Assembly (NCBI RefSeq): GCF_026210795.1
Contig: NC_089447.1
Location: 436,501 to 500,500, forward strand
Source: Rhizophagus irregularis
Taxonomy: Eukaryota; Glomeromycota; Glomeromycetes; Glomerales; Glomeraceae
Length of the DNA: 64,000 nucleotides
Direction of reading: 5' to 3'
A program made the translations under genes and the position numbers. Below the pieces are notes generated by a model. It saw only the letters and a program-made list of their open reading frames with translations, made no database searches and was not told the origin of the DNA. Positions 2,975 through 38,765 of this stretch are shown one piece after another. Every line of letters starts with the position of its first letter. Within the stretch, counting starts at the first letter, position 1.

Positions 2975-3379
2975 TTAAATTATAATTTCATCCGTTCCTT
3001 GTGAAACACGTAAATAAAGCTTTATATATAAGCTTTCTTCAAGGTTTAATTTTTGTTGTGGAGATAATGGTGTTTCATTATTCCGTGTATTTATATCAAA
3101 TTGCTCATTATTCAGTAAATCTTCAACAATTAAATGAGGTAATAATTTACACCTGACAAAGTAATTCGTTGTATAATATTGATAAAAAAATTCATGATCG
3201 TAATTAAAATTATAATCAGGATCATTATCATTTAAAAAATCGGGATTTTCTTGAACAATTTTGTAAGTTATTAAAAAAAAATTTTTATCCTTTGGTGTAC
3301 TATGAAAAAATCTTCCCTTAGTAATTAATCGTTGCACGATTGTTGCGACTGGATTAACAGTAGCTTGTGAAGTAGACAT
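2975..3379 (-). CDS. NYDH-family small protein, 134 aa, intact
   Basis: Function unknown; I recognise no named domain. Visible blocks: a conserved N-terminus (MSTS...VNPVATI, residues 1-14), KGRFFH (21-26), NYDHEFF (59-65), RCKLLPH (76-82), LSPQQKLNLEE (105-115) and a C-terminus ending in III. No signal peptide or membrane segment is evident, and the protein is rich in N, Y, F and D. The start is fixed by conservation across at least eight copies in this window, all beginning at the same ATG shortly after a GAAGCAAC-type leader. Intact relatives lie at 31984-32391 and 43559-43975. The 3' flank (about 280 bp) is conserved among copies and then runs into F-box-like gene sequence. Whether it is expressed is unknown. 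The same domain heads the long Asn-rich proteins nearby. Confidence 0.7.
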   Translation of the reverse strand: MSTSQATVNPVATIVQRLITKGRFFHSTPKDKNFFLITYKIVQENPDFLNDNDPDYNFNYDHEFFYQYYTTNYFVRCKLLPHLIVEDLLNNEQFDINTRNNETPLSPQQKLNLEESLYIKLYLRVSQGTDEIII

Positions 3380-4959
3380 GTTGCTTCTTTGATTTATTAA
3401 ACAATCGGAGTTTTATTTTCAATAATTTTAATGAAAAAAAGGTAAACAGGTTATAGAATTTTTGCAATCGGGTTTGGTGTATTTATATATATGATACAAG
3501 ATCGGTATAAAATTACCAAACAATAAAGCTAACTATTTTAGCTTAGTTTTTGTTTGTTTATGTCTTTAAATAAAGAAGGTATAAATATAGATTAATTTAT
3601 CGATTAAAGTATACGAAATTTTTTTTACCATATTTATACTTGAACCGATAAAAAGAACAATATTATCAATAGAGATATTGTTAACAAAGTGCATAAATCA
3701 GATTGATAGGACTAGAATATCAGATTTTGAAATCGAAATTATAAATTTAATCAAAAACTTCTTGTGTTTGTGTTGTGAATGGTAGATCTTTGTTTGTCTG
3801 TTTATTATGCATCGTTTCATCATAAGTAGAAAAAAATAAGGTTAGTCTCGGAATCTTTAGTTACACAAAATAAATTTAAAATTTTATAAAAATAAATGTC
3901 GAATTTATTTCTTAATTTGTTTCATTAGTCATTGAAAATTTAATATAATAGAAAATGTTCTTTATTTTTCGTTTAATTATACAATGCTTCCTATAAATAT
4001 AATCTAATCAAAGTACATTAACCTCAAAATAATATTTTTTTTTTAGCTTGATCATGTTATAAACCTCATGATCAATATTTATTGTATTTATTGCATTATA
4101 GTAATCTAATATGGGAGATCAACGTGTCATTCAGATACACAAAACTGTAATAAACTTTAATCGACGAAATTAGGAAATCATAACAAAGCAATTTTCAAAT
4201 GAATAAGATCAAAGAAGGGAAATCATAAAAAAACTGTATTTATGTGGTATGTACTGATAGTACTGTAGATATAAAAAGAATATTAAAACGTACCTTCCAA
4301 TTTTGAGGAACAAGAAAACAATAATAAATATACAAAATAAAAAAAGTAAATAAATTTATAATATTCTGAACAGTGCATCGGCTCATATAAAATTAATATA
4401 ATAAATCGAATAAATTTAATTAAAATATGTTTATCATAATAATTTCGTTTAAACTCTTTCCTTCTTATTAAATAATTCAAAATCACAATAAATTCAAGAG
4501 CTTTAGGAAATTTTTTACAATAAGAATCATTATAGAAATATAACTGAATAGAGTCGGTCAGCGTCCTACATTATATTATTACACGGTACTGAATATTAAG
4601 CATTTATAATACAGAGAAAAAATTGGTTCTCCTTTTTTAAAACCATTGAATACATTAGTTCTTGTTAAATAATTACTTATATAGTAGTATTATCAATAAT
4701 ACCATCAGAATTTCTGATTATAATCAAAAATTTTAAAATATAAATTTTTTAATAACCTGCATCGATTATTACATACATATATACTGTATATGTATATATT
4801 TGAATAGTAGGAATAATATCTAATTAATTAAAAAGTCAGTAAATAAAGATACTAATAAAAGAAATCGTTATACCAAATATTTATTTTTTATTCCTCTATT
4901 GTAAACATTTACGTTCAAATACTAATCACTATTCTTTTTTCTTTAAAAAAAACGGACAT

Positions 4960-5420: not shown

Positions 5421-5423
5421 GAG

Positions 5424-5520
5424 AATTTTGATTTTCTAATGGAATTCCGCAGTCTCGCGCTAATTGGATAATTTATAAGTACGGTCATGCACATGCACTG
5501 TTTCACGCAGTAAGGCTTGG
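5424..5520 (+). pseudogene. F-box-like gene relic (N-terminal part)
   Basis: The stretch corresponds to residues of the intact protein at 49818 around SQDP..R..WLIYKYG..HALFH. It ends just after the HALFHAVRLG codons, about 70 bp before the NYDH copy at 5594 on the same strand. The initiating part is not recognisable. The same fragment precedes the NYDH copies at 22.6, 35.0 and 44.0 kb. Confidence 0.55.
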
Positions 5521-5593
5521 GAGCTCTCCACATTTTAACTAACATATAATTTTTTCATTTATATTATAAAACTAAGTCTCCTAAAGAAGCAAC

Positions 5594-5977
5594 ATGTCTA
5601 TTTCATCAGCTACTGTTATTAATCCAGTCGCAACAATTATTCAACGTTTGCTAATTACTAAGGGAAGATTTTTTCATTATACACCAAATGATAAAAATTA
5701 CTACTTGATAACTTACAAAGTTATCCAAGAAAATTCCGATTATTTCAATAAAAATGTATTACGATCATGGATTTTTTTATCAATATTATACAATAAATTA
5801 ATATGTCAGGTGTAAATTATTACCTCATTCAATAGTTGAAAATTTATTGAGTTTGATATAAATACACGAAATAACGAAACACCATTATCTCCACAATAAA
5901 AATTAAACCTTGAAGTAAGCTTGTATATAAAGCTTTATTTACGTATTTCACAAGGAACGGATGAAATTATAATGTAA
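5594..5977 (+). pseudogene. NYDH-family copy with frameshift
   Basis: The first 50 or so codons are well preserved (MSIS...VINPVATI, KGRFFH), then sequence is lost before the NYDH motif and the frame changes, so translation ends at 5815. Later blocks (SPQ codons, final ACGGATGAAATTATAATG before TAA) are still readable in other frames to 5977. A further in-frame TAA replaces a Gln codon in the SPQQK stretch. It sits between an F-box-like N-terminal fragment (5424-5520) and an F-box-like middle fragment (6255-6650), all on the plus strand. Confidence 0.7.
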
Positions 5978-6254
5978 ACAGTACATTATGGTGCGTTTAT
6001 CACTTTTATTATTATTAAATTATTTCAGTTTCTATAGTTTCTATGAATTTTAAGATATAAATATTTCTCTCCTACACTATACTTCATTCATTTTTTTCAA
6101 ACTTTACTTTCCTACTATAGTCCTACTATATCTTTTAACTCTTTCATCTCTTCCTTCATTATTACCTAGAATTATTTGATCAACTCTTATTCATTATTCT
6201 TATACTGTATATAAATTTTTCAATTTTTATTAATTAATTACTGAGAATATAATA

Positions 6255-6650
6255 ATTTAAGTGACTATGATCTCATGATTAAAGAAAATGATATAGATTA
6301 TTTCATCAGTCTTTTATTAGTGGTTGATCAAGATCCTCAAAAAATAATTCTAAAAATTTGTACCTTTTTCACCTCGTCCTAATCTATTTACGAAGATTAC
6401 CAAAGCTCATGAAGAATATCTACTGTACAAAGGGTGGTCATGAAAATAGTCGTCAACCTAATGTCGTGGTTAGAGCAATATCGTACATCTAATTCGAAAT
6501 TTACAGTGATATCAACGTTAATTTGATTTTGTCCACCAACTAATTGGTAATTCCTAATTCTGTATTTATCGTTTATACCAACTTGGATTTCAATTAACTG
6601 GAATTATTATGGAAGGAAGCATGTCACTTGTTTGAACATAAATTTGAAAT
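6255..6650 (+). pseudogene. F-box-like gene relic (middle part)
   Basis: The sequence resumes the F-box-like reading order at codons matching LSDHDLVMKGNDMELFHFL of the intact protein and continues through the FVPFPPRP region and the SRQLNVVARAI region towards QLTEIVMEEA. Many indels and stops are present. Together with 5424-5520 it shows the F-box-like gene split around the NYDH unit. The paralogue at 46225-46610 has the same arrangement. Confidence 0.6.
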
Positions 6651-6964: not shown

Positions 6965-9367
6965 ATGTCTACCAAATTAACAAATACTTTACCAGACGAA
7001 GACCAAAAGAAACTCTTTCGGACGATCGTTAAAACCAAAATTTTTAGGAAGAAATTTATTAAAAACTGCTATTTCTTCATAGACAACTGTTATTTTTTTC
7101 ACTTTTTTTTGGTCTCTACGCTCGATCCGATACATATTTACATGAGTTTTCGTATAGGAAAAAAATTTCAAAAAAAATTTCTCAAAAATATAGAAGAATC
7201 CCATCGCTCAGTTACTAACGAAGAAGACATTTATTATACATATTCTTCGTCCAACAAGAATACCAAAATGACTTCTAACCAAAATACAGATACTCAAACT
7301 CTTAGAACAACACAAAATATTACAGACGAAACTGCTCCTATGGAAATAGAAGCTACTACATCCACCCATATTCTATCTAACTCTGAACAAGACGTTACAT
7401 CACGTGATTTGCAAAAAGAAAATGATATTCATACACAAACACCAATTACATCAACCATACAAGAATCTACTTATATGGAAGAAGATCATATTGAACTTAA
7501 CACAAATAAAGGAAAATCAGCAGAATATCAAACAAACACACAAAATGAATTACCAGATAAAATACACTTTACTATGCTCAACAACCTATTTGAACAAACG
7601 CCACAAGACTTAAACAAAGCACACAAAGCATTCGTCCCTAAAGACAGCTTTCAACCAAACATCAGTAACAATGATATCATCAACATCTTAAAAACCGCAT
7701 TTATCAATGATAATAATGCATTCAAATTTGAAGTCAACGTCCTATCAACATATAGATATTTCACCATATACTTTAGAACACGTGACTCCCTTGAACAATA
7801 TATCAAGAACAGTCCACCCTCGTTAAAAAATATAAAAATCTACGAACTTAATAAAACTACTATCAACACATTAATTGAACAAAAATTCAAAAATCTAGAT
7901 AACGCTGTTATCAAAATCATGGATATTCCATACAACTACGACACCAAGATGTTACTCAAACATCTCGCCAATAAAACCAGCAGCGCAATTCTCGAACACA
8001 CAGAAATCAAAAAACCTCCTAGAAAAATTCCTAATCGCAATAACCAAAAGAAACCAATCTTTATAAAACCTGCATACAAACAACTAATAGTACGATTCCA
8101 AAAACAAACAGCATATGATTACTTCATGAAGGAAGATTATTGGAGCTTAGAAATTGAAAATTTCCTTGTAAGAATCCTTCCAGGCAACTCTGAAGACCAA
8201 GAATACAAAAAACGTACTAGTAAATTTTTTAAAATCACAGGACTACCAATTAATACAACGGTTAGAGACATCGACCCAATTATAAAACACGTATACGGGC
8301 GTACATGCACATTTACACAACCCTCAAAATATTCAACAATGAAAAACGCATATGTTTATGTACACCCGGATAACTACCCAAAAGATGTAAATAGTATAGT
8401 TAGCACACCATTTAATGGGTCGCTAGTATATATACATCCATGTTCTTTATCACCAAAAACATGTAACATTTGTGGATCACATACACATACTATACAAAAC
8501 TGTGACGAAAAAAATTTTATTTTAGATAAAAACAATAGAAAAATATTTACAAAACGAATTATCAAACGAAATGACGAAAAAATCACTATCAACGAAGACT
8601 ATAAATCAAAATTTAGTCACGTTATCACTCTTAACGCTACCAATGCACGCCACAACGAATATCAAAACCATACTCGTCCACAACAACAAATGTCCAGACA
8701 AAATCAAAACAAATACATATCTCCATTTTCACAACATAAGGAACAAAACACTCCTCATGATCAATTTAGACAAAACGAGCGCTATCCAACATCAAAACGA
8801 CAAAATAATGACTACACATCCGACATATCAACACAAGATAAAATCCGTAACCTAGAAAACCAAGTAGCTACATTAACAGAAAAAATCAATAAAATGGAAA
8901 ACATTCTTAATCAAAACAACCTGCAAATGGACAACATTCAGAAAAATTATACGACTATCCCGGAATCAAATTTCAATATAGTCAATTCTAAACAAGACAG
9001 ATACGATGAAATTTTACAAAGACTCACGGATAACTTAGCTAAACTTAGCGACAAAATAATTGACAATGAACGATCAATCAAATCACCTAAACGTTCCTCT
9101 CCATATGATAAATCCTCATACGAACAAACAAAAAGAAAATACCATCTAAGATCTAACAAACAATCACGTGCGTCAGCAGAAGATAGCGATGCTGTTCCAG
9201 CAACTGATGAAGATTTAGATCTTCAAGATACCACCACATTAACTGACAACACGACATATGAAGGAATAATCGAACCAGACTCAGATTACACTCCAAACAC
9301 TTCCACATTTATGGCATCATCTTACAATCCTTTAAACATAATCTCAGGAATGACTACACGTAAATAA
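6965..9367 (+). CDS. LINE ORF1 protein, 800 codons, uninterrupted
   Basis: This is probably the nucleic-acid-binding ORF1 (Gag-like) protein of the LINE. Residues 500-513 form a CCHC zinc knuckle (CNICGSHTHTIQNC, spacing C-x2-C-x4-H-x4-C). Before it, about 330-480, are two stretches with the look of RRM-like folds seen in LINE ORF1 proteins. After it, about 625-660, heptad-like leucine and isoleucine spacing suggests a short coiled coil, and the C-terminal 100 residues are acidic and charged. The N-terminal 60 residues are aromatic- and basic-rich and might be untranslated; later Met codons at 7142 and 7267 are alternative starts. An 800-codon open frame in AT-rich DNA beside a wrecked ORF2 is notable. 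Expression is not shown. Confidence 0.85.
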   Translation: MSTKLTNTLPDEDQKKLFRTIVKTKIFRKKFIKNCYFFIDNCYFFHFFLVSTLDPIHIYMSFRIGKKFQKKFLKNIEESHRSVTNEEDIYYTYSSSNKNTKMTSNQNTDTQTLRTTQNITDETAPMEIEATTSTHILSNSEQDVTSRDLQKENDIHTQTPITSTIQESTYMEEDHIELNTNKGKSAEYQTNTQNELPDKIHFTMLNNLFEQTPQDLNKAHKAFVPKDSFQPNISNNDIINILKTAFINDNNAFKFEVNVLSTYRYFTIYFRTRDSLEQYIKNSPPSLKNIKIYELNKTTINTLIEQKFKNLDNAVIKIMDIPYNYDTKMLLKHLANKTSSAILEHTEIKKPPRKIPNRNNQKKPIFIKPAYKQLIVRFQKQTAYDYFMKEDYWSLEIENFLVRILPGNSEDQEYKKRTSKFFKITGLPINTTVRDIDPIIKHVYGRTCTFTQPSKYSTMKNAYVYVHPDNYPKDVNSIVSTPFNGSLVYIHPCSLSPKTCNICGSHTHTIQNCDEKNFILDKNNRKIFTKRIIKRNDEKITINEDYKSKFSHVITLNATNARHNEYQNHTRPQQQMSRQNQNKYISPFSQHKEQNTPHDQFRQNERYPTSKRQNNDYTSDISTQDKIRNLENQVATLTEKINKMENILNQNNLQMDNIQKNYTTIPESNFNIVNSKQDRYDEILQRLTDNLAKLSDKIIDNERSIKSPKRSSPYDKSSYEQTKRKYHLRSNKQSRASAEDSDAVPATDEDLDLQDTTTLTDNTTYEGIIEPDSDYTPNTSTFMASSYNPLNIISGMTTRK

Positions 9368-9480
9368 TTTACGTCTATTATTCCTCTCATTATCATATAT
9401 AACACCGGTAACGATTCCCTATTACTGATTATAATCCATCATTTATTATAAACACATACCCAAATTTATTTTATTAATCT

Positions 9481-10290
9481 ATGAAATACACCAATAATAA
9501 TTCACTGATTGGCCTCGAAAACCAATCCTCAAATATTTCTTCACATATTTCCCCTTTAACTCAAAAAAATCATAAAAATCAAAAAAATAATAAAATTATA
9601 GAAAAAACAAAAAAACTTCATATTTTAACCCAAACTCTTTTATATCTAATTCAATTAACGTCGCTTCACCTAACATTAGAGGATCATTTGATCAACTCTG
9701 ATATCCATTTTTTACATTTATGTGAAACACATAAATACGATCCCAAAAACTCGTACAACAATGATAACGATTTCCAACAAAATAACAAAAATAACAACAA
9801 ACTATTACCTCACCTACAATTTACACATACACCTTCCAATCAAAAATTTATCATTATACATAATCCAGATCCAAATAATAAAGCATCTGGAAATTCAATT
9901 ATAATATCACCTATTTTATATAAACATATAGGACCATTATACTTTATACCAGGCAGATTAATACACGCTACATTTTATTTCAGAAAACACCATCAATTAA
10001 ATATAATTAATTATATTTACCACCCATTACGTCAGCTAAAAATAATTACACAGTACTACAACTCAACTAATAGATAATTATATATCTAAAGTACTTAACA
10101 AATCTAACAAACATAATTATTTTATTCTAATGGGCGATTTTAATATTAATCCACATAATAGAAAAACATTAAACATAACTCAAAACGAGGATGAAATACC
10201 TATAGACATAAATAATACCAACCCTAATATTCCACAACATTATTACCACAAACATATTTTACATACATTAAAAGAGAAATTTTATAAAGA
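9481..10290 (+). pseudogene. LINE ORF2, endonuclease N-terminal part, frameshifted
   Basis: This is the start of the APE-like endonuclease/reverse transcriptase polyprotein. An INVASPNIRGSF-type N-terminus is readable at about 9650-9690 in one frame, and IHFLHLCETH follows in another (about 9705-9730), so a frameshift lies near 9690. GNSIIIS and the catalytic-loop region follow up to 10077, where a TAG ends the frame. GDFN, the conserved Asp/Asn motif of this nuclease superfamily, is at 10133-10144 after a further shift. At about 10290 forward homology stops and the opposite-strand block begins. Confidence 0.75.
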
Positions 10291-10291
10291 T

Positions 10292-10981
10292 TTAGTTGAT
10301 AGATATATATATCAATTTGTGGTCCGTATTGATGGGTGCATCTAGTAGTATATTACCAAATGTAATGTAATTAATTAAATTTTGTGATCCAAATATTATA
10401 TCTATATATGATGTTTGATTATTGTGATTAATGAACGTTGGAGGTGGGGTTAATAAAGATTTTAATATTTCTTGATCCGTTTGCGTTATCGCCATTTTGA
10501 TCTTTAGGTCAGAGGATATACGTTTTAATCTGTTTAATTTTTTTGGGCTATTCCAAAAGTTTAGTAATGGTAAGTGTTTAGAGTTGTTATTAACAGAAAA
10601 ATATAATTGTGACAGTCTGATCAATTTAAGTATATAATAAAGATCATTTTGAAGTACACGTATTTCATGTGTATATTCGTATTGATGAGAATTATTTTTT
10701 AGTATAGGAAAATGTAGTGATTTGATGGTACAGTTGATACTTTGAGTAAAATTATCATATGTCGCATTAATAAATGTTTGTATATTATTATTTTGCGTTA
10801 TATGTGATTTTCTGTGTATATATTCATCCCATACAAAATTATGAAAGTCGGTCCATTGTTCTTTTGTGACTTTTTTATAATTAATTTTTTCATTGGATGA
10901 GATATGTTTTTTGTTGTTTAATTCTATAATGTTGTTTGACGTGGTGATGTGGTTGTGTGTGTTCGTGAAGAAATTGTTCAT
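10292..10981 (-). pseudogene. LINE ORF2 block lying on the opposite strand
   Basis: A 229-codon frame on the minus strand carries LINE ORF2 sequence while everything around it reads on the plus strand. Its C-terminal end (about 10292-10460) holds the endonuclease C-terminal motifs YIDIIFGS and TDHKLI, which should directly follow GDFN. Its N-terminal part (about 10460-10981) holds the linker with WTDFHNF and NRLKRISSDL, which should follow TDHKLI. In plus coordinates the two parts are therefore in the expected order but each is individually reversed. A single inversion of the whole block would have swapped their order. The frame is open across the internal junction. Confidence 0.7.
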
Positions 10982-13713
10982 GTGGCCTCACAATTTAATA
11001 CACAATAATTTTTCGGATATATTAGAAAAATTAAAGACTATTCATAACATCCTGAAAATATCTTACGATGAAGCAATAAGTCATTTTAACAAAAACAAAA
11101 TAGAAAAATATATTAATCAAAGAGATAATATTATTATTACTAATCAAAAAAGGATGCTTAATTCATTATTAGATCAAAAACCAAATATCATCAAAATTGA
11201 TAGACTAATATATGATGATGAACATGGTGTTAAAACCTTTACTACCGATCCCGAACAAATAGAACAGCGAACCATAGACCACTATAAAAACATATCCAAA
11301 TCAAAAAAACTAATAGATCTTATGATCAAAATATCCCATTACGACAACCTTGGAAAGATATTTACCAACCGATGAATCATATCCCTTCAGCAGAAATTAA
11401 CAAGTTGATCGTTCCAATTACAATGGAAGAACTCAAGAATAATATTAAAGACCTCCCTAACAACAAAGCTACAGGTCCTAACAACATATCTAATGAAATT
11501 ATAAAAAAACTACTGCAACAAATGTTGGAAGTACTCCTTCTCATCTTTAATAGATGCCTTGAACATGGAATAATACCATCACAATTTGAATTAGCATACT
11601 TATACCCAATACCGAAGCCACAATGGTGGAATTATGATATTAACCTGACTAGACCTATCATATTACTAAATTGTATAAGAAAATTGATGGTCAAAATCAT
11701 TAATGGTAGACTTAACCATTATTTGTCGACTAATTATATTCTACAAATAAATAATCAAGCAGGCATACAAGGCGTGTCCTGTAATGAAATAATTCTACAG
11801 ATTCAAGCTATCATAGTCTCATAGATCACCAACACGATACAAAAAACTCATTTTATCTCGCCCTTCAAGACCTCAGTAAGGCATATGACAGAGTGGATTT
11901 AAACCTACTACAACTAGCTTTAAAACGAATCAATATCCCAGAAATATTAATCACATTTATTGAAAAATTATTTTCAAACCATCGTAATCAAATATTATTT
12001 CCCTTTGGTTGTGGATCTGAATATACCACTACGAATGGCATTATACAAGGGGAGTTATCTCTCCCTTGCTATGGGTAATATATTATGATCCCATGTTCGC
12101 TGCTATTAATAATTCACCCTATCCAGGCTACAACCTCCACGTAGCCATTCCAAAAAATATTTTTCACAACAATGATCTTCACGAAAAATCAATAAATATC
12201 AAACTCCTAGGTTACCAACACAACTTGGTTCACTCAAAATTTTAACGACCTACAAAATAATTTATCGATTGCCGATGATTTTTATGCATTAGCTAATATC
12301 AAAATTAACAAAGATAAAACAAAAATCCTTACTAATGATAAGGATATTAACAAAAAACAACATATTCCTCTAAAATTTGGGGAAGATTTAGTGGATATAA
12401 CAGTCGTTCCTCCATCAGATAACGAACGCATATTAGGAATTTATATCAATACTAACAACAAATTCCAATTTACAATTAACAAAATTAACAGAATGTTGAA
12501 ATATACTTGTTCTAATCTACGAAGAAAAAGAATCACACACGACCACGTTATATACTACGTCATCAACATACCTAGAATAGAATACCTTTGTCAACATTTT
12601 ATATTGTTACCGTATATATGTAACAATTTTAATAGAACTATTCGATCCATTTACAAATCATCCCTTTTACTCCCACGCTCTATTTATAACACAATTATTC
12701 ATAATCAAATTTACCCGAATATATTAAATATCTGGGATCGCCAATTTGCATCGTTATTAAATGCACAAGCAAATAGTCCCCTTACACGTGATATTATTGA
12801 ATATCTTATTTTATATTCTCAATCGAGATTATGGACAAATGATATTTTTTTTACCACAAAGTTCCTTGATTCACCTTCTAAAAAATTAAATAGAATTGAA
12901 AACTTATTATGTATTATGCACAATTATAAATTAGAATTCAAATTTTCCTTCAAATTTAATACTAAAGGAGGTGTTTACCCCTTTTCAGCATATCTTATTC
13001 GATCAAACAAATTTTTTAGTTATATTAAATCTTTAAAAACTAAAGAACTCTTTTATCTACAACAGATTATTACCGTTGATGGACTATTTCTTAAATCATG
13101 GAAAGAAATACAAAATTCGTTATCCAACAAAAAAGGTCGACCTCCTGCATGGTACAAATATTTACGTGAATGTATCGTTCTCAACCAAAATAACTTACAA
13201 TTAAATTTTGACTTACCAGTAAATAATTATCATAATTCGACTATTACAAAACCAAAAGTTATCGCTCAAAATTCCAAAATTACAAGAATAAAAAATATAT
13301 GGATTGCCTATTGGTGTCCCAGAACTAATAACGTAATTTATGGAAGAGTCATAGAAAAAAATCACTTTTATAACCACCATCAAACTATTACCTTTGAACA
13401 TTTTATACACATACCTGATTCACATCCTTCCAACAATAATTTGACACCACGATCATGCCCCACGTACCTTTCTAAATGTACTGGTTGTCGTTTGTCAGAA
13501 CAAAATGTTTATAACAATAACAATTTAAACACTTGTTATATTACTTCATTATCAAATTCTACATTTATTATTAATATATCAAAAAGTAATCATACCTTTC
13601 CTAATTACCAAAAACCAATTTACAAATGTTCTAAACAACATTCTACTATTAGACAAATAGCTTTAATAGATTTTAATTTCTCGCCCTTTAGAAAACCCGG
13701 ATATTTCAAATGA
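10982..13713 (+). pseudogene. LINE ORF2, reverse transcriptase region, frameshifted
   Basis: This is the RNA-dependent DNA polymerase part. Readable blocks: linker (10982-11370); KATGPNNIS (about 11466-11492); a TRPIILLN-type block (about 11648-11675); QDLSKAYDRVD with the first catalytic Asp (about 11866-11900); and NGIIQGE followed by SP...LLW (about 12033-12070), where a one-base length change in the GGGGAG run shifts the frame. At about 12211-12223 the GY-to-TTW segment lacks the codons that carry the paired catalytic Asp, with a frame change. From about 12221 to the TGA at 13711-13713 one frame is open and codes for the thumb/connection region, with a CPTYLSKCTGC Cys cluster. No active enzyme can result. 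Confidence 0.82.
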
Positions 13714-14035
13714 TCCTATAATATATCGATCACAATTACAACAATTAATAGATTTAGACTCGATTAATCAGCTTAATAGAAATCTTATTATACAATTAAT
13801 TATACCCAATTTATTACATATTCCTTTATTAAATATTTCTTTTCAACTTTTTTCTTTTACTAACTTAGAATTCCCTATAAAAAATTTTATCCGTTATTTC
13901 TGTAAAAACTCCGTAAAAATGAGCCTTTCATGGATCCATTCACGGAAAATGTAAATAATTCGATAAATTCCGTGATATAAGGTTATTAATTCCAGAAATA
14001 TGAGCCTTTTACGGAAAAAAGACGGAATATAAAAA
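13714..14035 (+). other. LINE ORF2 linker with a small inserted segment
   Basis: 13714-13880 looks like continued, frame-broken linker between the reverse transcriptase and RNase H regions. From about 13890 to 14030 the sequence changes character: two imperfect copies of an AATGAGCCTTT...ACGGAAAA segment occur about 80 bp apart, with several CCGT/ACGG motifs nearby. This looks like a small insertion, but I could not define ends or a target duplication. Confidence 0.35.
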
Positions 14036-14569
14036 ATGGATAGACTTTTTTTACAAGGATTTTATACAGATGGATCGCTCAGTCGAGACGATGATATACC
14101 AATCATGGGTTTTGGTTGGATTTTCACCTCTGATTTATCAATGAATATTAAATATTCAGGCTCATGTAAAGAATGGGCCAGCTCAACGAAAGCCGAATTG
14201 GTCGCTATTATTACAGCATTAATAGTCTGCCCACCCCATAGTACTATCAATATTTATACCGATTCGAACAATTGCATTAACACATTTAATGATCTACACT
14301 CTCCAAAATTAACTGCTAGACGTTTCCAAAAACTTAACAATTGTTCCCTATGAAATACGCCCGAACATATCATTAATACTTTACATTTGAAAGTTTCATT
14401 AATTAAAGTGAAAGCACATTCAGACAATCCTCTTAATGATGCTGCTGACATTTTAGCAAAAGAAGGTAGATCTTCGATTAATTTTATACAATTCAACATA
14501 CAACACATTAAAACACAAACATGCCACCTTACGTTTAATAATACTACAACTGTTGATCGTAACATATGA
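14036..14569 (+). pseudogene. LINE ORF2, RNase H domain with two TGA stops
   Basis: This is an RNase H1-like domain, which removes RNA from the RNA-DNA hybrid during retrotransposition. YTDGSL (first Asp), STKAELVAIITAL (Glu), IYTDS (second Asp) and, after an in-frame TGA at 14351-14353, KAHSDNPLNDAADILAK with the final His/Asp motif are all visible in one frame. A second in-frame TGA lies at 14567-14569. Both TGAs stand where a Trp codon (TGG) would be plausible. All catalytic acidic residues appear retained, unlike in the reverse transcriptase. Confidence 0.8.
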
Positions 14570-15508
14570 AAATCTATCAGAAGAATAACCAACTTTCAAT
14601 ATTTTGAATGGCACTTAGCACATCAGAACTTACAAAAAGTAAAACATTACGCTCTCAATAATATTATAGATTGGGAATATTCACAATTATGGTTTAAATA
14701 TAATTCATTTTCTAAACCAACTAGCAAACAATATACCAAACATATAAGCTGGAGAGTTAAATGCTCCAGTCATAATTTACCAACACTGGACATCCTCAAT
14801 CGTAATTATCCTGAATTACTTCAAAATTATGAAACTTGCATCTTATGCTCAACATATATATAAAGAAACTAACGAACACTTATGGAACTGCCCGCAAGTG
14901 TAATTCTTCTTACACCAATATTCGAAGAACATTACAACAAATTCAAGACGCTCATTACTTCGGAATCAAACTCGCTTTATGCCTTATATTCAGATTCCAT
15001 CACGCGTAACCCCATTTTTAAATGGGTTAAAAAACCACCTCAACAAATCATCAATATACCCGAACTCCATTGCCTTCTGATGAACTTTATTCCAACTTCC
15101 TTAACCTATCCATTCAAAGTGGCTAAAATTAGCTTATTGAAATTTCTATTCGACCTATATAAAGATATATATGAGAAAATATGGAAACAACAAGCTATAG
15201 CATGGCGCCAATTCAAAAAATCATGAGGTATCACTAAAAAATCTTTCACCAATTACAGACGTAATTATCATCAAGAAACAGCTCAAAGACTTAGACAAAC
15301 TGATTATAATAATATTAACCATATCAATGGATATCACTGTCCGTTGAACAACTCAAGATGACGAGTTGAGAATAACAACCTATGGATTTACCTAACCTCA
15401 TCGAACTTTTTACATAACCTACCTTGGTTATCATCGCTCAATGACGATCTATCAAATTTTCATTTAACAATATATTTTTATTTTACATATAAGCCTGACG
15501 GGCATTAA
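14570..15508 (+). pseudogene. LINE ORF2 C-terminal region with zinc-binding segment
   Basis: The frame runs on after the TGA at 14567 and reaches CILC at about 14838-14850. A shift in the TATATATAA run then moves it to the frame reading ETNEHLWNCPQV, giving a broken C-x2-C...H-x4-C zinc motif usual after LINE RNase H domains. A further frame (14882-15226) gives a continued C-terminal tail ending in a TGA. Readable sequence continues through another TGA at 15359-15361 to a TAA at 15506-15508. Confidence 0.65.
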
Positions 15509-17076: not shown

Positions 17077-17235
17077 TATGTCTATTACTATGATCTCCAG
17101 TTGCAACAACTTAAACCAAACGATAAATTAATAACTTACAAAATTATTTAAGAAAATTCTATTTTTCTAACGATAATGATTAGTTCAGATTATAATCTTT
17201 AAAATTATGACATGAATTTTTTATTATTATATTTT
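17077..17235 (+). pseudogene. Relic of NYDH-family gene inside block 2
   Basis: Fragments matching the NYDH gene are in order on the plus strand: CCAGTTGCAACAA, then codons for NDK, then ATAACTTACAAAATTATT, then GAAAATTC and the motif before NYDH. There are large losses and stops. The same relic is at 30157-30313, and a further decayed one at about 41654-41880. Confidence 0.5.
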
Positions 17236-18439: not shown

Positions 18440-18790
18440 TGTGCTGAATCTTCATCATAACAAATGAAATGTTTCTTCCACAATCAATTGAAATCCAAGA
18501 TCAACCGTCAGGAATTATCCAATCAGTTGGTGGATTAAGAGGGAAATAAAATTGAAGCAGTACCTTGTTCGTTGACATCACTGCAAATTTCATGGAATCC
18601 CATATTTTTCCATCGCTCTTAAGTTGACGACTATTTCATAACCATCCTTTGGGGGGATAATCTTTATAAACTCTCGCTTGCATTAATTGAATATTCTACG
18701 GCATCTTCGTTAAGAGGAGCTAATTGATTACTAAAGGACCACTACATCATTCCTTTAATCACGAGATTCTGATTAACTAAATATTATATT
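18440..18790 (-). pseudogene. F-box-like gene relic (middle part), copy B
   Basis: This is the same relic as at 2240-2720, shortened. The reverse complement keeps the codons for the VNEL region and the region before it, with gaps and stops. It follows the 3' flank of the NYDH pseudogene at 19024-19405 on the same strand. Confidence 0.55.
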
Positions 18791-19023: not shown

Positions 19024-19405
19024 TTAAATTATAATTTCATCCGTTCCTTGTGAAACACGTAAATAAATCTTAATATATAATCCTTATTCAAGGCTTAATT
19101 TTTGTTGTGGAGATAATGGTGTTTCGTTATTCCGTGTATTCATATCAAGTTGCTCATTATTCAGTAAGTCTTCAACAATTAAATGAGGTAATAATTTACA
19201 CCTAACAAAGTAATTCGTTGTATAGTAATATTGATAAAAAAATTCATGATCGTAATTAAGATTATAATCAGGATCATTATCATTAAAAATATCAGAATTT
19301 TCTTGAACAATTTGTAGGTTATTAAGAAAAAATTCTTCCCCTATTAATTAAATAACGTTGCATAATTGTTGCGACTGGATTAACAGTAGCTGATGAAGTA
19401 GACAT
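19024..19405 (-). pseudogene. NYDH-family copy, broken, in copy B
   Basis: It starts like the intact copies (MSTS.ATVNPVATI) but a deletion of about 35 bp removes the FFH...K region and brings a stop after 27 codons. Downstream blocks, including NYDH, CKLLPH-like and LSPQQK codons, are still recognisable to the TAA at 19024-19026. The paralogues in copies A and C are intact. Confidence 0.7.
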
Positions 19406-22176: not shown

Positions 22177-22588
22177 TTACATTATAATTTCATCCGTTCC
22201 TTGTGAAATACGTAAATAAAGCTTTATATACAAGCCTTCTTCAAGGTTTAATTTTTGTTGTGGAGATAATGGTGTTTCGTTATTTTGTGTATTTATATCA
22301 AACTGCTCAGCATTCAATAAATCTTCAACTATTAAATGAGTTAATAATTTACACCTGACATAATACTTCATTGCATAATGTTGATAAAAAAAATTCATGA
22401 TCGTAATTAAGATTATAATCAGAATCATTTTCATCGTAATAATTTGAATTTTCTTGAATAATTTTGTAAGTTATCAAGTAAAAATTTTTATCATTTGGTG
22501 TACAATGAAAAAACCTTCCCTTAGTAATTAGAAAACGTTGTATAATTGTTGCAACTGGATTAATAACAGCAGCTGGTGAAGTAGACAT
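22177..22588 (-). pseudogene. NYDH-family copy with one homopolymer frameshift
   Basis: This is a nearly complete family member: MSTS...VINPVATI, KGRFFH, NYDHEFF, then in the next frame YYVRCKLL, LSPQQKLNLEE and DEIIM. The only break is in the run of A at about 22385-22392 (coding-strand T run after NYDHE), which has eight bases where intact copies have seven. This could be a true mutation or a sequencing error; if an error, the gene is intact. An F-box-like N-terminal relic lies directly upstream on the same strand. Confidence 0.7.
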
Positions 22589-22639: not shown

Positions 22640-22775
22640 TGCGTGGAACAGTGCATGTGCTCATAAATTAGCCAATCAGCGCGAGACTGCGGATCTTGCG
22701 AGATAACATACCCCTTTTTATTAGTAAGAGCGAATGAAATTGATGTATCTACAGTTTGTTGTATAGAGACTCCAT
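22640..22775 (-). pseudogene. F-box-like gene relic (N-terminal part)
   Basis: The minus-strand ATG at 22775 starts codons matching MESLYN.L; a TAG follows. SQDPQSRADWLI-type codons appear further on in another frame, then the HALFH region. It is followed by the NYDH copy at 22588 on the same strand, the same arrangement as at 34834-35421. Confidence 0.6.
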
Positions 22776-23695: not shown

Positions 23696-25027
23696 TCAAA
23701 CCGGTTTCACATGTTGTAATCGAGTAACTTGGTGAATATCATTTACATCGTGATCGCATATCAAGTCGTTGGTTTGCGTTGTCATTACATTGTTATCAAA
23801 ATTATTATTGTGCGAATTTGTGTCCCTATAATTGGTAGTGTTGATATGATTGACTTGGTCATTTATATCTTAGTAATCGCGTATCAAGCCATTAACTTGC
23901 GTTGTCGTTACATTGTTTTCAATATTTTCATTATGTGAATCTGTATCTCTATGATTATTGTTGATATTATTAGCCTGGTTAATATCATTTATATCTTGGT
24001 GATCGCATGTCAAGCCATTGGTTTGCGTTGTCGTTACATTATTTCCAATATTTCCATTATGTAAATCTGTGTCTCTATAATTATTGTTAAGATCAACTTG
24101 TTGCTGTATGTAAGCAAAGTTTCTAGCGCCATTTACATCTTGGATATAATTACCATAGTTTTGATTAATATCAGTTGTCAAAACAGATTGTGTTACGGGT
24201 GTATTGTGCACAATATTTCCATGAAATGAATTTAAATTTCCATAATAATTCGATCTCATTTCTCTATCTGTAATTTGTTGTGGAATATTATTGAAATCAA
24301 TTTGTTGTTGTGAATTAGTAACATTATAAGTAACTCTATTTCGTGGCACCGAAGATGTTGAACTTGAAAGGGGATTGATGGGTTGAGGAAAACCATTGTT
24401 TTGACTATCTGTTATCGAAACTGCTTGTGTTGTCATTACATTATTTCCAATATTTTCACAAAATGAATCTGTATTTCCTTTACAACGTAATCGTTCAGGG
24501 ATTTGTTGTGGATTAATGACATTATTAGTAAAATATCCGGCTCTAGTTTGTTGAGGGAAGTTATTATCAAAATTAGTTTGATTATCAGTTATCGAAATTG
24601 TTTGTGTATTATCATGTTCGTAAGAAGAATTCATTCTTATTTCTTTATTAGTAGTATGATATTGTTTAAGATGAAAAGGAAGAATTCGTTCCAAATCTTG
24701 TTCCAAATTCAATCTTTGATTCAAAGATAATAATTCTTTTCGTTCCAAATTATTTATGTCAATATCTATTCCGTATATTTTTTTATTCAACATATTTGTG
24801 ATCAAAGAATGTGGAAGTATTTTACACGTGACATAATAATTTGCTGTAGGGTTAATATTATAAAAGAATCCATGATCATAATTGTAATTATCAAAGGAGT
24901 CAAACCCTTGTAAAATAGTTTGACAAGTTATATGATAAAATTTATCATAATTTGGTGCATAATGAAAAAATTTACATTCATTCATTTGTGTGTTACTTTG
25001 CGTATTAGGTTGAATATTCATATTCAT
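23696..25027 (-). CDS. Asn-rich NYDH-domain protein, 385 aa, probably shortened by a nonsense codon
   Basis: Function unknown. The N-terminus (residues about 19-115) carries the NYDH domain (KFFHYAP, NYDHGFFY, CKILPH, LSLNQRLNLE). The rest is low-complexity, rich in N, Q, T and D, and ends in a 41-42-residue repeat built on DLHNGNIGNNVTTTQ. Translation stops at 23870-23872, where TAA replaces the CAA found in the same repeat of the other copies. The frame continues open for 57 more codons to a TGA at 23696-23698, matching the C-terminus of the 37413 copy (NDIHQVTRLQHV). I give the full remaining frame as the gene extent. The start is supported by identical positions in all three copies and a conserved upstream block. 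Confidence 0.75.
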
Positions 25028-30156: not shown

Positions 30157-30313
30157 ATGACCAATATGTCTATTACTATGATCTCCAGTTGCAAAAATTT
30201 AAACCAAACGATAAATTAATAACTTACAAAATTATTTAAGAAAATTCTATTTTTCTAACGATAATGATTAGTTCTGATTATAATCTTAAATTACGACATG
30301 AATTTTTTATTAT
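30157..30313 (+). pseudogene. Relic of NYDH-family gene in block 2
   Basis: This is the same decayed fragment as at 17077-17235, with the CCAGTTGCAA and ATAACTTACAAAATTATT words and stop codons. It is too degraded to be functional. Confidence 0.5.
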
Positions 30314-31439
30314 TTTTATTTTTATTAAGAAAATTAGGGGTTTTTCAAAAACATACCGCATGGTAAACATACTTTGATAAAATACAAAAAAGGGACGATC
30401 GACCTGTAAATAATTGGATGGTAGAAAAAGGTAAGAGTACTGTATATCATTTATTTTTATGGAAATGTCGAGTAACATAGGACAAGTATCGGAATTTAAG
30501 TTAAATACGAGAGTTTTTCTTCCAAAAAATAATTATTTTCTTTTTCTTATTTACTGGTCGATTATTATCTATCCTAATATACGTATATCAGATATACAAA
30601 AAGTTTTTGTCATGGAATATTCGTTTATACAAAGGAAGGTCTTCCTACTGTAGTTCAACTTTTCGTTTGACACTTATACATTTTATAAGAATGTAAATTG
30701 TAAATAACAGATACGTATAAATTATTATATAAAAGTATGTATGAATTCTTAAATTTTTTTTTTTTTATGATTATTGAGCCTGGTAAAGTAAATTAATTTT
30801 ATTATTTTTTATTTTATGATATAAACAAGACTGTTATATTAAAACTAATATACTATTAATAGTTAAAATCCCACCAAGATGGAATCGCTCCACCTGTTAT
30901 TTACACAGGCTCGGCTAGCTTAAGACTAAAAAAAATTAAAATGCCCTAAGGAATAAGAATTTTTTAAAAAGGTATCTATCTAATTTTAATACTCCTTATT
31001 TTTCTTTTACCATGTTCAAATATGAAATAGTTTAAAAATAAAGGAAAATTTTTTTTCTTTTTTCCTTAGAGCCTTACATGACACGACGTTTCTAGTTAAC
31101 AAGGAAGCCGTCATCAGAGAATATGGATTGATGCCGAGGTGATAGTGAGGTTGTCATCGTCGTCATTAATTGCGTCATCAATATATCCTCAAATGGAAGC
31201 GCGGGACATTCTTTCGTGAAAGAAATTTACTGAAATGTTGCACCAGAAATTTATTGAAGAAAGTGATATCTTCTATAACTATATTCTGATCGTATGTACG
31301 CAGTAATTATTTTGTTTTTGCATTCTCGCCGAAGCTGATTCTTTATCTGAAAGGGGTGGATGGAGATGACGAATAGATTTGTAGAGTAAATATTAAATCC
31401 GCTTAATAAAGGTGTTGATGAAAGAGGTAACAAAGGGAT

Positions 31440-31750
31440 TTGGTTTTGCCGAATCTTCGCTATAACAAATGAAATGTTTCTTCCTGAAGTCCAAGATCAA
31501 CTTCAGGAATTATCCAATCAGTTGGTGGAGTAGGAAGGAAATAAAACCTTGCATCACTAGTTCGTTGGCATCATTGCAAATTTCATATTTTTCCATCGCT
31601 CTTAAGTCGACGACTATTTCATAACTATCTTTTGGGGATAATCTTTATGAACTCTCGTTGAATATTCTACGGCATCTTTGTTAAGTGGAGCTAACTAATT
31701 ACTAAAGGACCGCTGAATCATTCCTTTAATCACGAGATTCTGATTAACTG
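31440..31750 (-). pseudogene. F-box-like gene relic (middle part), copy C
   Basis: This is the shortened counterpart of 2240-2720 and 18440-18790, with the same order on the minus strand and more deletions. It follows the 3' flank of the NYDH gene at 31984-32391. Confidence 0.5.
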
Positions 31751-31983
31751 AGTATTATATTAATTTAGTAAAAATTGGATAAAAATTCATATGAGTTGAC
31801 TAAATATTTCTTGGTAATAATGACGGAAGGAAGAGGTGAAGGAATTGTGATGAGGGAAAGTAAAGTTTGAAAAGATGAAGAAGTATGGCGTAAGGGGGAA
31901 TATTTTAAAAATCCTAATTTATTACGTGAAACAAAAATAATTTAATAAGTTTGTAGATGTGATAACGCATCATAACGTACTAT

Positions 31984-32391
31984 TTAAATTATAATTTCAT
32001 CCGTTTCTTGTGAAACACGTAAATAAAGCTTTATATACAAGCTTTCTTCAAGGCTTAATTTTTGTTGTGGAGATAATGATGTTTCGTTATTCCGTGTATT
32101 CATATCAAATTGCTCATTATTCAGTAAATCTTCAACAATTAAATGAGGTAATAATTTACACCTGACAAAGTAATTCGTTGTATAATATTGATAAAAAAAT
32201 TCATGATCGTAATTAAAATTATAATCAGGATCACTATCATTAAAAAAATCAGTATTTTCTTGAACAATTTTGTAAGTTATTAAAAAAAAATTTTTATCCT
32301 TTGATGTACTATGAAAAAATCTTCCCTTAGTAATTAATCGGCGTTGCACAATTGTTGCGACTGGATTAACAGTAGGTGGTGAAGTAGACAT
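31984..32391 (-). CDS. NYDH-family small protein, 135 aa, intact
   Basis: Function unknown. It has all blocks of the family: MSTS..TVNPVATI, KGRFFHST, NYDHEFFY, RCKLLPH, LSPQQKLSLEE, and ends in III. It is very close to the 2975-3379 protein, differing at scattered positions and by one extra Arg before LITKG. The start ATG and the leader (CTTCTTTGATTTATTAAA on the plus strand) are the same as in copies A and B. No membrane segment or signal peptide is seen. It remains open while the copy in segment B is broken, so it may be functional, but two intact copies among many broken ones do not prove selection. Confidence 0.7.
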   Translation of the reverse strand: MSTSPPTVNPVATIVQRRLITKGRFFHSTSKDKNFFLITYKIVQENTDFFNDSDPDYNFNYDHEFFYQYYTTNYFVRCKLLPHLIVEDLLNNEQFDMNTRNNETSLSPQQKLSLEESLYIKLYLRVSQETDEIII

Positions 32392-34833: not shown

Positions 34834-35010
34834 ATGGAGCCACTATACAACGAGTTAAGAATCGAAATATTCAAATTTGTAGATACACCAATTTCACTCG
34901 CTCTAACTAATAAAAAGTGGTATGTTATCTCGCAAGATCCGCAGTCTCGCGCTGATTGGCTAATTTATAAGTACGGTCATGCACATGCGCTGTTCCACGC
35001 AGTAAACTAA
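34834..35010 (+). pseudogene. Truncated F-box-like protein, 58 aa
   Basis: The N-terminus matches the intact 49818 protein (MEPLYNELR, EIFKFVDTPISLALT, SQDPQSRADWLIYKYG, HALFHAV) and is fully open, but a TAA follows after 58 codons where the intact protein continues for over 500 residues. The NYDH copy begins 41 bp downstream. It could still make a short F-box-like peptide; I treat it as a fragment. Confidence 0.65.
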
Positions 35011-35050
35011 CATTCATTTATTATAAAACTAAGTCTCCTAAAGAAGCAAT

Positions 35051-35421
35051 ATGTCTACTTCACCAGCTGCTGTTATTAATCCAGTCGCAACAATTATACA
35101 ACGTTTTCTAATTACTAAGGGAAGGTTTTTTCATAGTACACCAAATGATACAAGAAAATTCCGATTATTTGATGAAAATGATTCCGATTATAATCTTAAT
35201 TACGATCTTGAATTTTTTTATCAACATTATGCAACGAAGTATTATTATGTCAGGTGTAAATTATTAACTCTGAAGATTTATTGAATGCTGAGCAGTTTGA
35301 TATAAATACACGAAATAACGAAACACCATTATCTCCACAACAAAAATTAAACCTTGAAGAAGGCTTGTATATAAAGCTTTATTTACTTATTTCACAAGGA
35401 ACGGATGAAATTATAATGTAA
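35051..35421 (+). pseudogene. NYDH-family copy with two internal deletions
   Basis: A perfect family start (MSTSPAAVINPVATI, KGRFFHSTPND) is followed by loss of about 30 bp, a compensating small change that restores frame for SDYNLNYD, and a second small deletion after CKLL that shifts the frame and ends translation at 35284. The remaining blocks are readable in another frame to TAA at 35419-35421. It lies directly behind the F-box-like fragment. Confidence 0.75.
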
Positions 35422-37412
35422 ATAGTACATTATGGTGCGTTTATCACGTTTATTATTATTAAATTATTTCAGTTTCTATGAATTTCAAAATATAAAATAT
35501 TTCTCTCCTACACCATACTTCATTCATTTTTTTCTTAGCTCCTTCACCTATTCCTTCATTATTACCTAGAATTATTTGGTCAACTCTTATGCTTATTACA
35601 TCATTCTTATACCGTAAATTTTTCAATTTTTAAATAATTCAAGTGACTATGATCTCATGATTAATATCAATCACTGCACATGTAATAAAATTTAAGGGCA
35701 AAATTTTCTTTGATAGCCATATTATGGTTCCGTATAGGCTTTTCTACTATTAGCTAACATATGCAACTAGTGCTTCGATCCGGATGAAACTTGAATATTT
35801 TCATGTGACGATTATGGCTGAGAAAGATTATGAATTTCAGACTTAAACAGACTATAATTTAAACCAACATTAAAGTATTATTATCCTAAAAATTTATACT
35901 AATTCTTGCCAAACTCATAGTACCAGCGAAATTTAATGAAATTCAATCCGGATGAAAAACCGGATAAAACCGCTACGGATCAATTATTCCTTTATTATAT
36001 AATACCTCATACAATTTTTATCTTCAATTAATTATAAATATAAAATCATATAAATTATATATATAAATACTGTCAACAATTCAAACAATCTTGTTTATTA
36101 ATAACATTTCGTTTTTCACAAAAATGCCTAATGAAATGAAGTTTAGTAGACAATGTTGACAGTAGGCTTGAGAATCCCTAACCTTCCTTACGTGATTAAA
36201 CTTTTATCATAATTATAAGAGTTTCTTGGACGATATCTTTGTCGATCCAGGAAGACCTTTCCGCGTTGTGCAACAAAAAAAATTGTGAAACATAATATAG
36301 TGAGTGACTTGCCATGCAAAGTCCCGTGATTAAAATGATGAGTTTGTATAAAAAAAAATAAATAAAACATTAATAAATTTTTAATAATCCAAAGTATAAT
36401 TGTAAAGAAAAACTTACTTTTCTTTGAATAAGGAATGGCTTCTTTGGTTTTTATTTTCGACATTTTGAGATTGTAAAAAAAATATTAAAAATTTAAAATT
36501 TGTAAGTAAACGTAACAGCATTACAAACAATTCCTACAAGTATATTTTTACTATTAAAATAGGAAAAAAAAGAATAAAAAGATTTATAATATGTTAGTAG
36601 TTAATGTTAATAACAATCCTTACTTCTAGAAGATACTTAATAATAATTTAATTACATAATAACTCTCAAATACGATCATTTTTGACAATTAATATATATT
36701 TTATTCTTTTATGAAGGAGATATCATTTCTCGCGAAGTTATATAGTAGTACTAAGATTTAAACGACGCAGTATTATTAATACCTTTAGCCTGTAAGGTAA
36801 AGATCGTAGCACGAGTTATAGAAATACTGCGGCGACCAATAGGAATTAACGTCATTAATAATGCTAATTGAAGTATCACAAAGTACAAAAAAAAAAATAT
36901 CTTTTTAATATTATTTGTTATTAGTCACTTCTTGCAATTTTGCCGATTATGTATTGAAACACAAAGTTCATAAAATCTCTATTTTATAAAATAGAACTTT
37001 GATTAAACAATCATTATAATTATGTAGAGAAACTTTGAATCACAAATTTTCAACAATTGAATTTCCTTTCTTATTTTTAGAAAGAACAATAAAGGTGTCT
37101 AGTTAGTAATTCATAACAATCATACATCGGAAAAAAGCCGCTGTTTTAAATAACATCTTATTTCCTTATTATTCATAATTTTTTAATTTTAATGAACTTA
37201 TATTCATAATAAGGTTAATACTCCATAAATTAAAAATCATAAAATTAAAGAAAAAATAAAAAAAGTCCTTAATTGAACCAAATTAAATAATCTATTGTAA
37301 TATATTCGTTAATTTTAACATAGATTAGTCCTTCAATCATTTTATAAGTCCGTAATTTTATCTAATGTAAACGAGAAATAAAAATTAAATTTAAAAGTAT
37401 GTCAAACCGTTT
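35422..37412. other. Conserved NYDH 3' flank, then duplicated spacer
   Basis: 35422-35680 is the conserved 3' flank of the NYDH unit, ending at codons for SDHDLM of the F-box-like gene. 35765-35970 is unique and starts and ends with ATCCGGATGAAA in direct orientation. 36000-36860 is block 2 (third copy). 36936-37412 is paralogous to 23187-23695. A 91-codon minus frame at 36188-36463 lies in block 2 and is not conserved. Confidence 0.5.
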
Positions 37413-38765
37413 TCATTGTTGATGTTGAATATGATGGGAATCAACATGCTGTAATCGAGTAACTTGGTGAATATCATTTACATCGTGATCGCATATCAAG
37501 CCGTTGGTTTGCGTTGTCATTACATTGTCATCAATATTATTATTATGCAAATCTGTGTCCTTATAATTATTGTTGATATGATTATCTTGGTGATTATCTT
37601 GCTGATTATCATTCATATCTTGGTGATCGCATAACAAGCCATTAGCTTGCGTTGTCGTTACATTGTTTTCAATATTTTCATTATGTGAATCTGTATCTCT
37701 ATAATTATTGTTGATATTATTATTAACTTGGTTAATATCATTTATATCTTGGTGATCGTTAGTTTGCGTTGTCGTTACATTATTTCCAATATTTCCGTTA
37801 TGCAAATCTGTGTCTCTATAATTATTGTTAAGATCAACTTGTTGCTGTATGTAAGCAAAGTTTCTAGCGCCATTTACATCTTGGATATAATTACCATAGT
37901 TTTGATTAATATCAGTTGTCAAAACAGATTGTGTTACGGGTGTATTATTCACGATATTTCCATGAAATGAATTTAAATTTCCATAATAATTCGATCCCAT
38001 TTCTCTATCAGTAATGTGCTGTGAAATATTATTGAAATCAATTTGTTGTTGTGAATTAGTAACGTTATAATTAACTCTATTTTGTGACACCACAGATGTT
38101 GAACTTGAAAGGGGATTGATTGGTTGAGGAAAACCATTGTTTTGACTATCAGCGATCGAAACTGCTTGTGTTGTCGGTACATTATTTGTATTTTCATTAC
38201 AACGAATTCCTTCAGGAATTTGTTGTGGAATATTATTTAAAACAAGTTGTGGATTAATGTCATTATTAGTAAAACACCCAGCTCTAGTTTGTTGAGGAAA
38301 GCTATTATCAAAATTAGTGTGATTATCAGTTATCGAAATTGTTTGTGTATTATGCACATAAGAAGAATTCATTCTTATTTCTTTATTAGAAGTATGATTT
38401 TGTGTAAGATGAAAAGGAAGAATTCGTTTCAAGTCTTGTTCCAAATCTAATCTTTGATTCAAAGATAATAATTCTTTTCGTTTCAAGTTATTTATGCCAA
38501 TATCTATTCCATATATTTTCTTGTTCAACATATTTGCGACCAAAGAATGTGGAAGTATTTTACACATGACATAATAATTTGATATAGGGTTAATATTATA
38601 AAAGAATCCATGATCATAATTGTAATCATCAAAGGAGTCAAACCCTTGTAAAAGAGTTCTGTAAGTTATATGATAAAATTTATCATAATTTGGTGCATAA
38701 TGAAAAAAATTACATTCATTCATTTGTATGTTACTTTGCGTGCTAGGTTGAATATTCATATTCAT
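37413..38765 (-). CDS. Asn-rich NYDH-domain protein, 450 aa
   Basis: Function unknown. NYDH domain at residues about 19-115: NFFHYAP (19-25), NYDHGFFY (49-56), CKILPH (68-73) and LSLNQRLDLE. A long N/Q/T-rich central region follows (TQTISITDN, QPINPLSSSTS, QQQIDFNNI). Three C-terminal repeats of about 38-45 residues are built on RDTDLHNGNIGNNVTTTQ; the middle one has SHNENIENN and the last LHNNNIDDN. It ends VTRLQHVDSHHIQHQQ. There is no membrane segment. Compared with the 23.7-25.0 kb copy, the reading frame is intact to the natural end. The start is set by conservation of MNMNIQP in all three copies. Low-complexity Asn-rich tails of this kind can be disordered; any role is unknown. Confidence 0.8.
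   Translation of the reverse strand: MNMNIQPSTQSNIQMNECNFFHYAPNYDKFYHITYRTLLQGFDSFDDYNYDHGFFYNINPISNYYVMCKILPHSLVANMLNKKIYGIDIGINNLKRKELLSLNQRLDLEQDLKRILPFHLTQNHTSNKEIRMNSSYVHNTQTISITDNHTNFDNSFPQQTRAGCFTNNDINPQLVLNNIPQQIPEGIRCNENTNNVPTTQAVSIADSQNNGFPQPINPLSSSTSVVSQNRVNYNVTNSQQQIDFNNISQHITDREMGSNYYGNLNSFHGNIVNNTPVTQSVLTTDINQNYGNYIQDVNGARNFAYIQQQVDLNNNYRDTDLHNGNIGNNVTTTQTNDHQDINDINQVNNNINNNYRDTDSHNENIENNVTTTQANGLLCDHQDMNDNQQDNHQDNHINNNYKDTDLHNNNIDDNVMTTQTNGLICDHDVNDIHQVTRLQHVDSHHIQHQQ

Follow-up and report, generated by a model that had tools for sequence, protein, structure and literature searches.

Our sequence comparisons indicate that the small proteins and the N-termini of the long, Asn-rich proteins encoded in a 64-kb stretch of the Rhizophagus irregularis genome (contig 19, positions 436,501-500,500; the whole stretch is referred to as the window) are homologous and have one domain in common, and this domain is real, expanded and so far unnamed. 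Three intact small genes and two long genes lie inside the window and a third long gene runs off its right end, all of them beginning with the same N-terminal block, and beside these genes lie four fragments and no fewer than five decayed small copies (Table 1). The ORFs of the 134 aa and the 450 aa protein are intact on the minus strand, and frame 1 of the plus strand is full of stops. As an earlier note on this DNA had described, a small protein is nearly the domain alone, and an Asn-rich protein is the domain followed by a long low-complexity tail.

Table 1. Positions of domain genes, their decayed copies and fragments, and remains of a neighbouring gene family in the window
Position	Strand	Feature	Remark
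2975..3379	-	Small domain-only gene, 134 aa, intact	ORF
31984..32391	-	Small domain-only gene, 135 aa, intact	ORF
43559..43975	-	Small domain-only gene, 138 aa, intact	ORF
23870..25027	-	Long gene, 385 aa, domain at about residues 18-125 and Asn-rich tail	ORF; genome-search match continues past one stop beyond its end
37413..38765	-	Long gene, 450 aa, domain and Asn-rich tail	ORF
62707..64000	+	Third long gene, domain and Asn-rich tail, passes window end	495 aa open frame in genome
5594..5974	+	Decayed small copy, stops and frame changes	
19027..19405	-	Decayed small copy, stop and frame change	
22180..22588	-	Decayed small copy, two frames	85 aa ORF 22177-22434 is its 3' part
35051..35418	+	Decayed small copy, two pieces	
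45818..46021	+	Decayed small copy, 3' part only	
47515..47659	-	Small-copy fragment	Best E 2e-7
17107..17235	+	Weak small-copy fragment	E about 6e-4
30204..30308	+	Weak small-copy fragment	E about 1e-4, only without composition adjustment
7..84	-	5' fragment of small copy at window edge	E about 5e-4
5447-6642		Remains of 619 aa gene	
22657-22767		Remains of 619 aa gene	
34834-35043		Remains of 619 aa gene	
43101-44227		Remains of 619 aa gene	
2247-2678		Remains of 619 aa gene	
18450-18692		Remains of 619 aa gene	
31433-31584		Remains of 619 aa gene	
46230-46593		Remains of 619 aa gene	

Homology of the two protein groups and the domain signature

The proposal that one domain links the two groups is upheld by BLASTP, shuffling and profile-profile comparison alike. 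The best BLASTP alignment of the 134 aa with the 450 aa protein spans 114 columns at 34% identity (E = 2e-15), the further segments of this pair being chance matches, and its 59.7 bits compare with a maximum of 25.8 in 2,000 shuffles of the first 140 residues of the 450 aa protein. A profile of 10 small domains matched one of 12 long domains with E = 2.4e-22 and a score of 120.8, where none of 100 column shuffles exceeded 21.1; this comparison left out an L011 row that had stood among the long domains although of the wrong clade, and one row from L023. A third, more distant clade matched both the small profile (E = 1.8e-7, score 44.4, column-shuffle maximum 17.2) and the long profile (E = 4.8e-19, score 104.6, maximum 17.6). 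Window sequences seeded the HMM that collected the rows of the clade profiles, which introduces a circularity for which column shuffling does not correct. Compared directly by BLASTP, the small protein and L060, a member of the distant clade, gave a non-significant E of 0.18, and their link rests on profiles and intermediate sequences.

The FFH, NYDH and CK motifs stand at the residues that the earlier note had given and follow each other in the same order, but their spacing is not the same, since the long proteins have six residues fewer between FFH and NYDH, one additional residue ahead of NYYV and four more following LN. The nine freely differing residues said to separate NYDH from CK are in fact 14 to 15, and this stretch is not freely variable, with F64, Y66, N72, Y73 and V75 (small-protein numbering) invariant in five window sequences. 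Nor do FFH, NYDH and CKxLPH serve as the signature of the whole domain: they are subfamily traits whose residues alternate across 73 aligned rows. The third place of FFH is Y in 42 rows, H in 28 and F in three, NYDH ends in H in 34 rows and in Y in 29, and the LPH block reads S (37) or P (27) followed by H (39) or P (16), a pattern indicating that all three are local forms of looser patterns. The wider signature over the 73 rows is Y-x-[VI]-x-C-[KE], LN and then Q-K-x-x-L-E-x-x-L, and the most constant columns are F (72/73), C (72/73), L (73/73), N (71/73), L (70/71), L (71/71), Y (65/73) and L (64/70). Because H and Y alternate at the FFH and NYDH places, we rule out family-wide metal binding through these histidines.

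Genome-wide expansion, internal duplication and tails

Searches of the genome (146,748,485 bases on 32 contigs) with seven members gave at least 92, 79, at least 119, at least 115, 72, 99 and at least 137 matches, the first from 94 of 116 candidates scored and those with 119, 115 and 137 matches from 150 candidates scored each. Match places were collated by eye and merged when overlapping or at most 60 bases apart, and nine rows of the 92-match search were left out (eight covering only the tail, one at query 80-181). This gave about 178 domain places on 23 of the 32 contigs, a rough lower bound in which decayed copies and fragments are counted, and within its own genome the domain is strongly expanded. 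A single array on contig 19 (141-749 kb, 0.6 Mb), which includes the window, accounts for 48 of these places, two arrays on contig 25 comprise 23 and 16, and 149 of the 178 have a neighbour within 100 kb. It is plausible that the domain is restricted to AM fungi.

From 70 fetched loci, some overlapping, out of the roughly 178 places, an iterated profile (111 rows in its match table, 88 in its alignment) and a tree were drawn. The tree comprises 73 non-identical rows of at least 85 residues and is midpoint-rooted for drawing only, with 18 of its 70 inner branches open; it separates 23 from 50 rows with support of 100/100. The small group of contig 19 joins a group from contigs 8, 4 and 25 on a branch supported at 100/97, and the four ORFs of the latter group have 55 to 103 flanking residues on either side of the domain. 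The long group forms the neighbouring branch, with weak support where L033 is included (80/28).

The first two thirds of the domain are an internal duplication, with halves that read FFY..PND..YHITCK and FFYQ.....YxVTCK..S..I...LN. Compared as profiles, the first half matched the second with a probability of 97.8, E = 1e-12 and a score of 51.8, whereas 200 column shuffles reached at most 15.6 and the reversed profile 8.1, and from this match we conclude that the domain most likely grew by doubling of a hairpin unit. At eight loci on contigs 5, 6, 15 and 25 the whole domain occurs twice within a few hundred bases. In all eight, a scripted search placed a candidate in-frame intron between the copies, each time at the same position and with GTTCGT or GTTTGT as donor (in L041 this donor was tied with another), and we predict that an intron separates the doubled domains there; a 320 aa frame on contig 17 contains two domains with no intron.

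The tails of the long window members contain 20-21% Asn and 29-32% Asn and Gln together; in the 450 aa protein the values are 21% and 32%, with 8% Asn expected from base composition. That the tails are repetitive, as had been noticed by eye, is confirmed by self-BLASTN, in which each of the three long genes pairs with itself over stretches of about 220-260 bp shifted by about 120-140 bp; these repeats are imperfect, and Tandem Repeats Finder reported only two short, weak arrays at 37413-38765. Among the 73 rows, 40 have a same-frame flank of at least 40 residues (23 C-terminal, 10 N-terminal, seven on both sides) and 33 have neither, a count in which introns and cut loci hide some flanks. The flanks contain at least 20% Asn and Gln in 32 of the 40 flanked rows (median 25.5%).

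Pooled dN/dS was 0.25 for the small domain (bootstrap 0.15-0.36, nine sequences), 0.38 for the long domain (0.22-0.56, 11 sequences) and 0.53 for the Asn-rich tail (0.38-0.67, 10 sequences), based on 100 bootstraps with 15 pairs each, with L026 left out of the small group and L008 out of the tails. With the divergent L026 included, the value for the small group rose to 0.28 (10 sequences); three other groups gave 0.235, 0.245 and 0.25, and single pairs reached 1.1 (small) and 1.0 (long). Pooled values below 1 indicate that the intact copies are, or recently were, functional proteins, and by the same measure the tail appears to be under looser constraint than the head.

This result bears on the idea that the family consists of secreted effectors or host-interaction proteins evolving fast in tandem arrays. 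The genes do lie in a tandem array within a duplicated, partly decayed region, and PMC10234402 describes lowly expressed regions of the R. irregularis genome that are richer in recently evolved genes, likened there to a two-speed genome model. However, the pooled dN/dS of the domain is well below 1, the N-termini, judged by eye, look polar with no evident signal peptide, and we regard such a role as very unlikely.

Comparison with known folds and families

Both predicted structures, that of the long-protein domain (mean pLDDT 71.9, pTM 0.68) and that of the 134 aa protein (69.3, pTM 0.65), consist of two strand pairs, a short helix and a long helix at moderate confidence. They were built on only 10 and 11 window sequences, shallow alignments with largely shared rows, and the lower-ranked models of the long-protein domain had a pLDDT of at most 55.9 and down to 35.7, those of the second job down to 40.6. 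At E <= 0.001, Foldseek found nothing in PDB with either model, nor in BFVD with that of the long-protein domain. The VIA-align rows, with Z of at most 4.5, include AcrIIC2 (Z 4.5, rmsd 4.3 over 77 residues) and many protein kinase N-lobes (Z 3.3-4.4, rmsd 2.3-4.6 over 54-75 residues), rows that are tied and rest on moderate models, and kinases appeared again in a second run with Z up to 4.2; on the scale of the tool itself, Z below 5 is uninformative. The likeness to AcrIIC2 and the kinase N-lobe lies in antiparallel strands with a helix, but the kinase N-lobe alignments barely cover the C-terminal helix and neither protein occurs among the PDB sequence matches listed.

Sequence searches likewise found no named domain, as the earlier note had stated. 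Pfam searches with 44 members at E <= 1 placed none of the 25 families listed in more than two members; the best single match was TRAF_BIRC3_bd (E 5e-4, one of 44 members), a family that scored 17.3 bits in the longer ORF of L032, below its cut-off of 30.5. Searches of PDB sequences gave nothing significant, with best E values of 0.2 for a 44-row profile, 0.94 for a five-row profile and 0.083 for a single protein. That the domain belongs, in divergent form, to a known family or fold that sequence searches and shallow models do not bring out, with a function that would follow that family, is a reasonable though lesser possibility. The moderate confidence of the models, the shallow alignments and the VIA-align rows up to Z 4.5 speak for it; the absence of a Foldseek match at E <= 0.001 in PDB or BFVD, the uninformative range of those Z values and the lack of significant matches to Pfam and PDB sequence profiles speak against it. 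None of the rows listed by Foldseek and VIA-align is a convincing relative, and on these models we consider the fold unassigned, not proven new.

Scanning prokaryote contigs (33 pattern matches) and viral contigs (two) with one member confirmed no relative, and three stray single-member matches were found in PHROGs (E 0.004-0.008). A viral or prokaryote origin was set aside, given the lack of a confirmed contig relative and of a BFVD fold match, neither of which excludes relatives. A literature search that included disorder and incompatibility found no account of the domain family within a coverage that left out most subscription journals.

Lineage-specific families of unknown role are common in AM fungi, and in our view large unnamed families contribute to these genomes being hard to read. 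Sel1, protein kinase and BTB proteins are among the expanded families of Rhizophagus, and the HMG-box yielded at least 150 matches above the curated cut-off in this genome (150 of 275 candidates scored) and none in 14 control genomes. Like these families, ours has many paralogs in one genome, often clustered; unlike them, it matches no named domain, and it has no HMG linkage beyond chance. The arabinogalactan-like and disordered proteins that the authors of PMC8786786 found only in the subphylum Glomeromycotina are also of low complexity, some of them rich in Gly and Asn. They are cell-surface proteins rich in Pro and Gly or in Gly and Asn with ER and GPI signals, whereas the long window proteins combine a domain of predicted fold with an Asn/Gln-rich tail. 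A profile uniting the roughly 178 places, with the core signature and internal repeat that it defines and the connection that it makes between small, Asn-rich and double-domain proteins, would let annotators name the family, check its spread in fungi and choose a representative for structure work. The internal duplication and the copy number make the family a good target.

Possible role and genomic surroundings

The constant columns are mostly structural and include no conserved polar set, which is suggestive of a domain with no catalytic centre, and the domain is acidic, with a median net charge of -4 and 69 of 73 rows at or below zero. Taken together, these features make a protein-binding head the likeliest role, and we tentatively propose a compact intracellular domain of about 105 residues, in which two beta-hairpins derived from a duplicated 'FFY..PND..YHVTCK' unit would be followed by two helices, first a short one formed by the IxxxLN block and then a long C-terminal one (QKxxLExxLxxxL). 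This head may act in docking or self-association inside the cell. About half of the rows would have it joined in-frame, at one end or at both, to arms that look flexible and are mostly rich in Asn and Gln, and in some genes it would be doubled. The small proteins of the window would be head-only versions, probably descended from armed ancestors, for which we count their place beside the group with two-sided flanks in the tree. Tandem duplication may have spread and varied the heads while selection kept the core, and head-only proteins could, as a conjecture, compete with or cap armed ones. The fold searches returned no match backing a binding role.

The same data bear on the idea that the domain binds nucleic acids or regulates transcription, its Asn/Gln-rich arms serving for activation. 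Such arms do occur in transcription regulators, and HMG-box genes are expanded in this genome. The acidity of the domain, however, disfavours general nucleic-acid binding, and no HMG box was found in seven ORFs or in four family ORFs, nor did the Pfam families listed for 44 domain stretches include one. The distance of HMG loci from domain places is roughly that expected by chance (three of 150 within 5 kb, 1.2 expected, 95th percentile 3, in a shift test with some contig sizes assumed), so that the test shows no link between the two families beyond chance. We consider this reading improbable. A bolder version of the binding-head proposal, which we regard as a long shot, is that a new fold was born in AM fungi by beta-hairpin doubling and that well over 100 heads, many of them Asn/Gln-armed, serve these multinucleate fungi as a diversified intracellular recognition or assembly system, which could act, for instance, between nuclei that coexist or hyphae that fuse.

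The small genes of the window are associated with a 619 aa gene, which is intact at 49758-51617 (+) and has no Pfam match at E <= 1. Pieces covering its residues 21-90, approximately, lie just upstream of four of eight small copies, and pieces from residue 93 or later lie downstream of six of the eight. We infer that a small gene and 619 aa remains formed a composite that was later duplicated; the pattern looks as if the small gene had entered the 619 aa gene near codon 91 before the block duplicated. Broken ORFs at 6965-15226 (+) resemble by eye a LINE-type retroelement, with a zinc-knuckle-like first ORF followed by reverse-transcriptase-like and RNase-H-like pieces; Pfam found nothing significant at 6965-9367.

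These surroundings, in which small copies sit among remains of another gene family near LINE-like remains judged by eye, and the five or more decayed small copies would suit a family that arose as a by-product of segmental or transposon-driven duplication and has no present function. Pooled dN/dS of 0.25 (upper bound 0.36) and 0.38 (upper bound 0.56), values of 0.235-0.25 in three further groups, and frames that stay open over the domain in members on many contigs argue against it, and we hold it to be highly improbable.

At the right end of the window, a 136 aa ORF at 63508-63918 (-) is an antisense frame of the third long gene, for which no separate explanation is required. Finally, three small copies have the stretch TATATAAATA in common, upstream of 3379, 32391 and 19405 on the minus strand, and at its place the four other small copies examined carry remains of the 619 aa gene.
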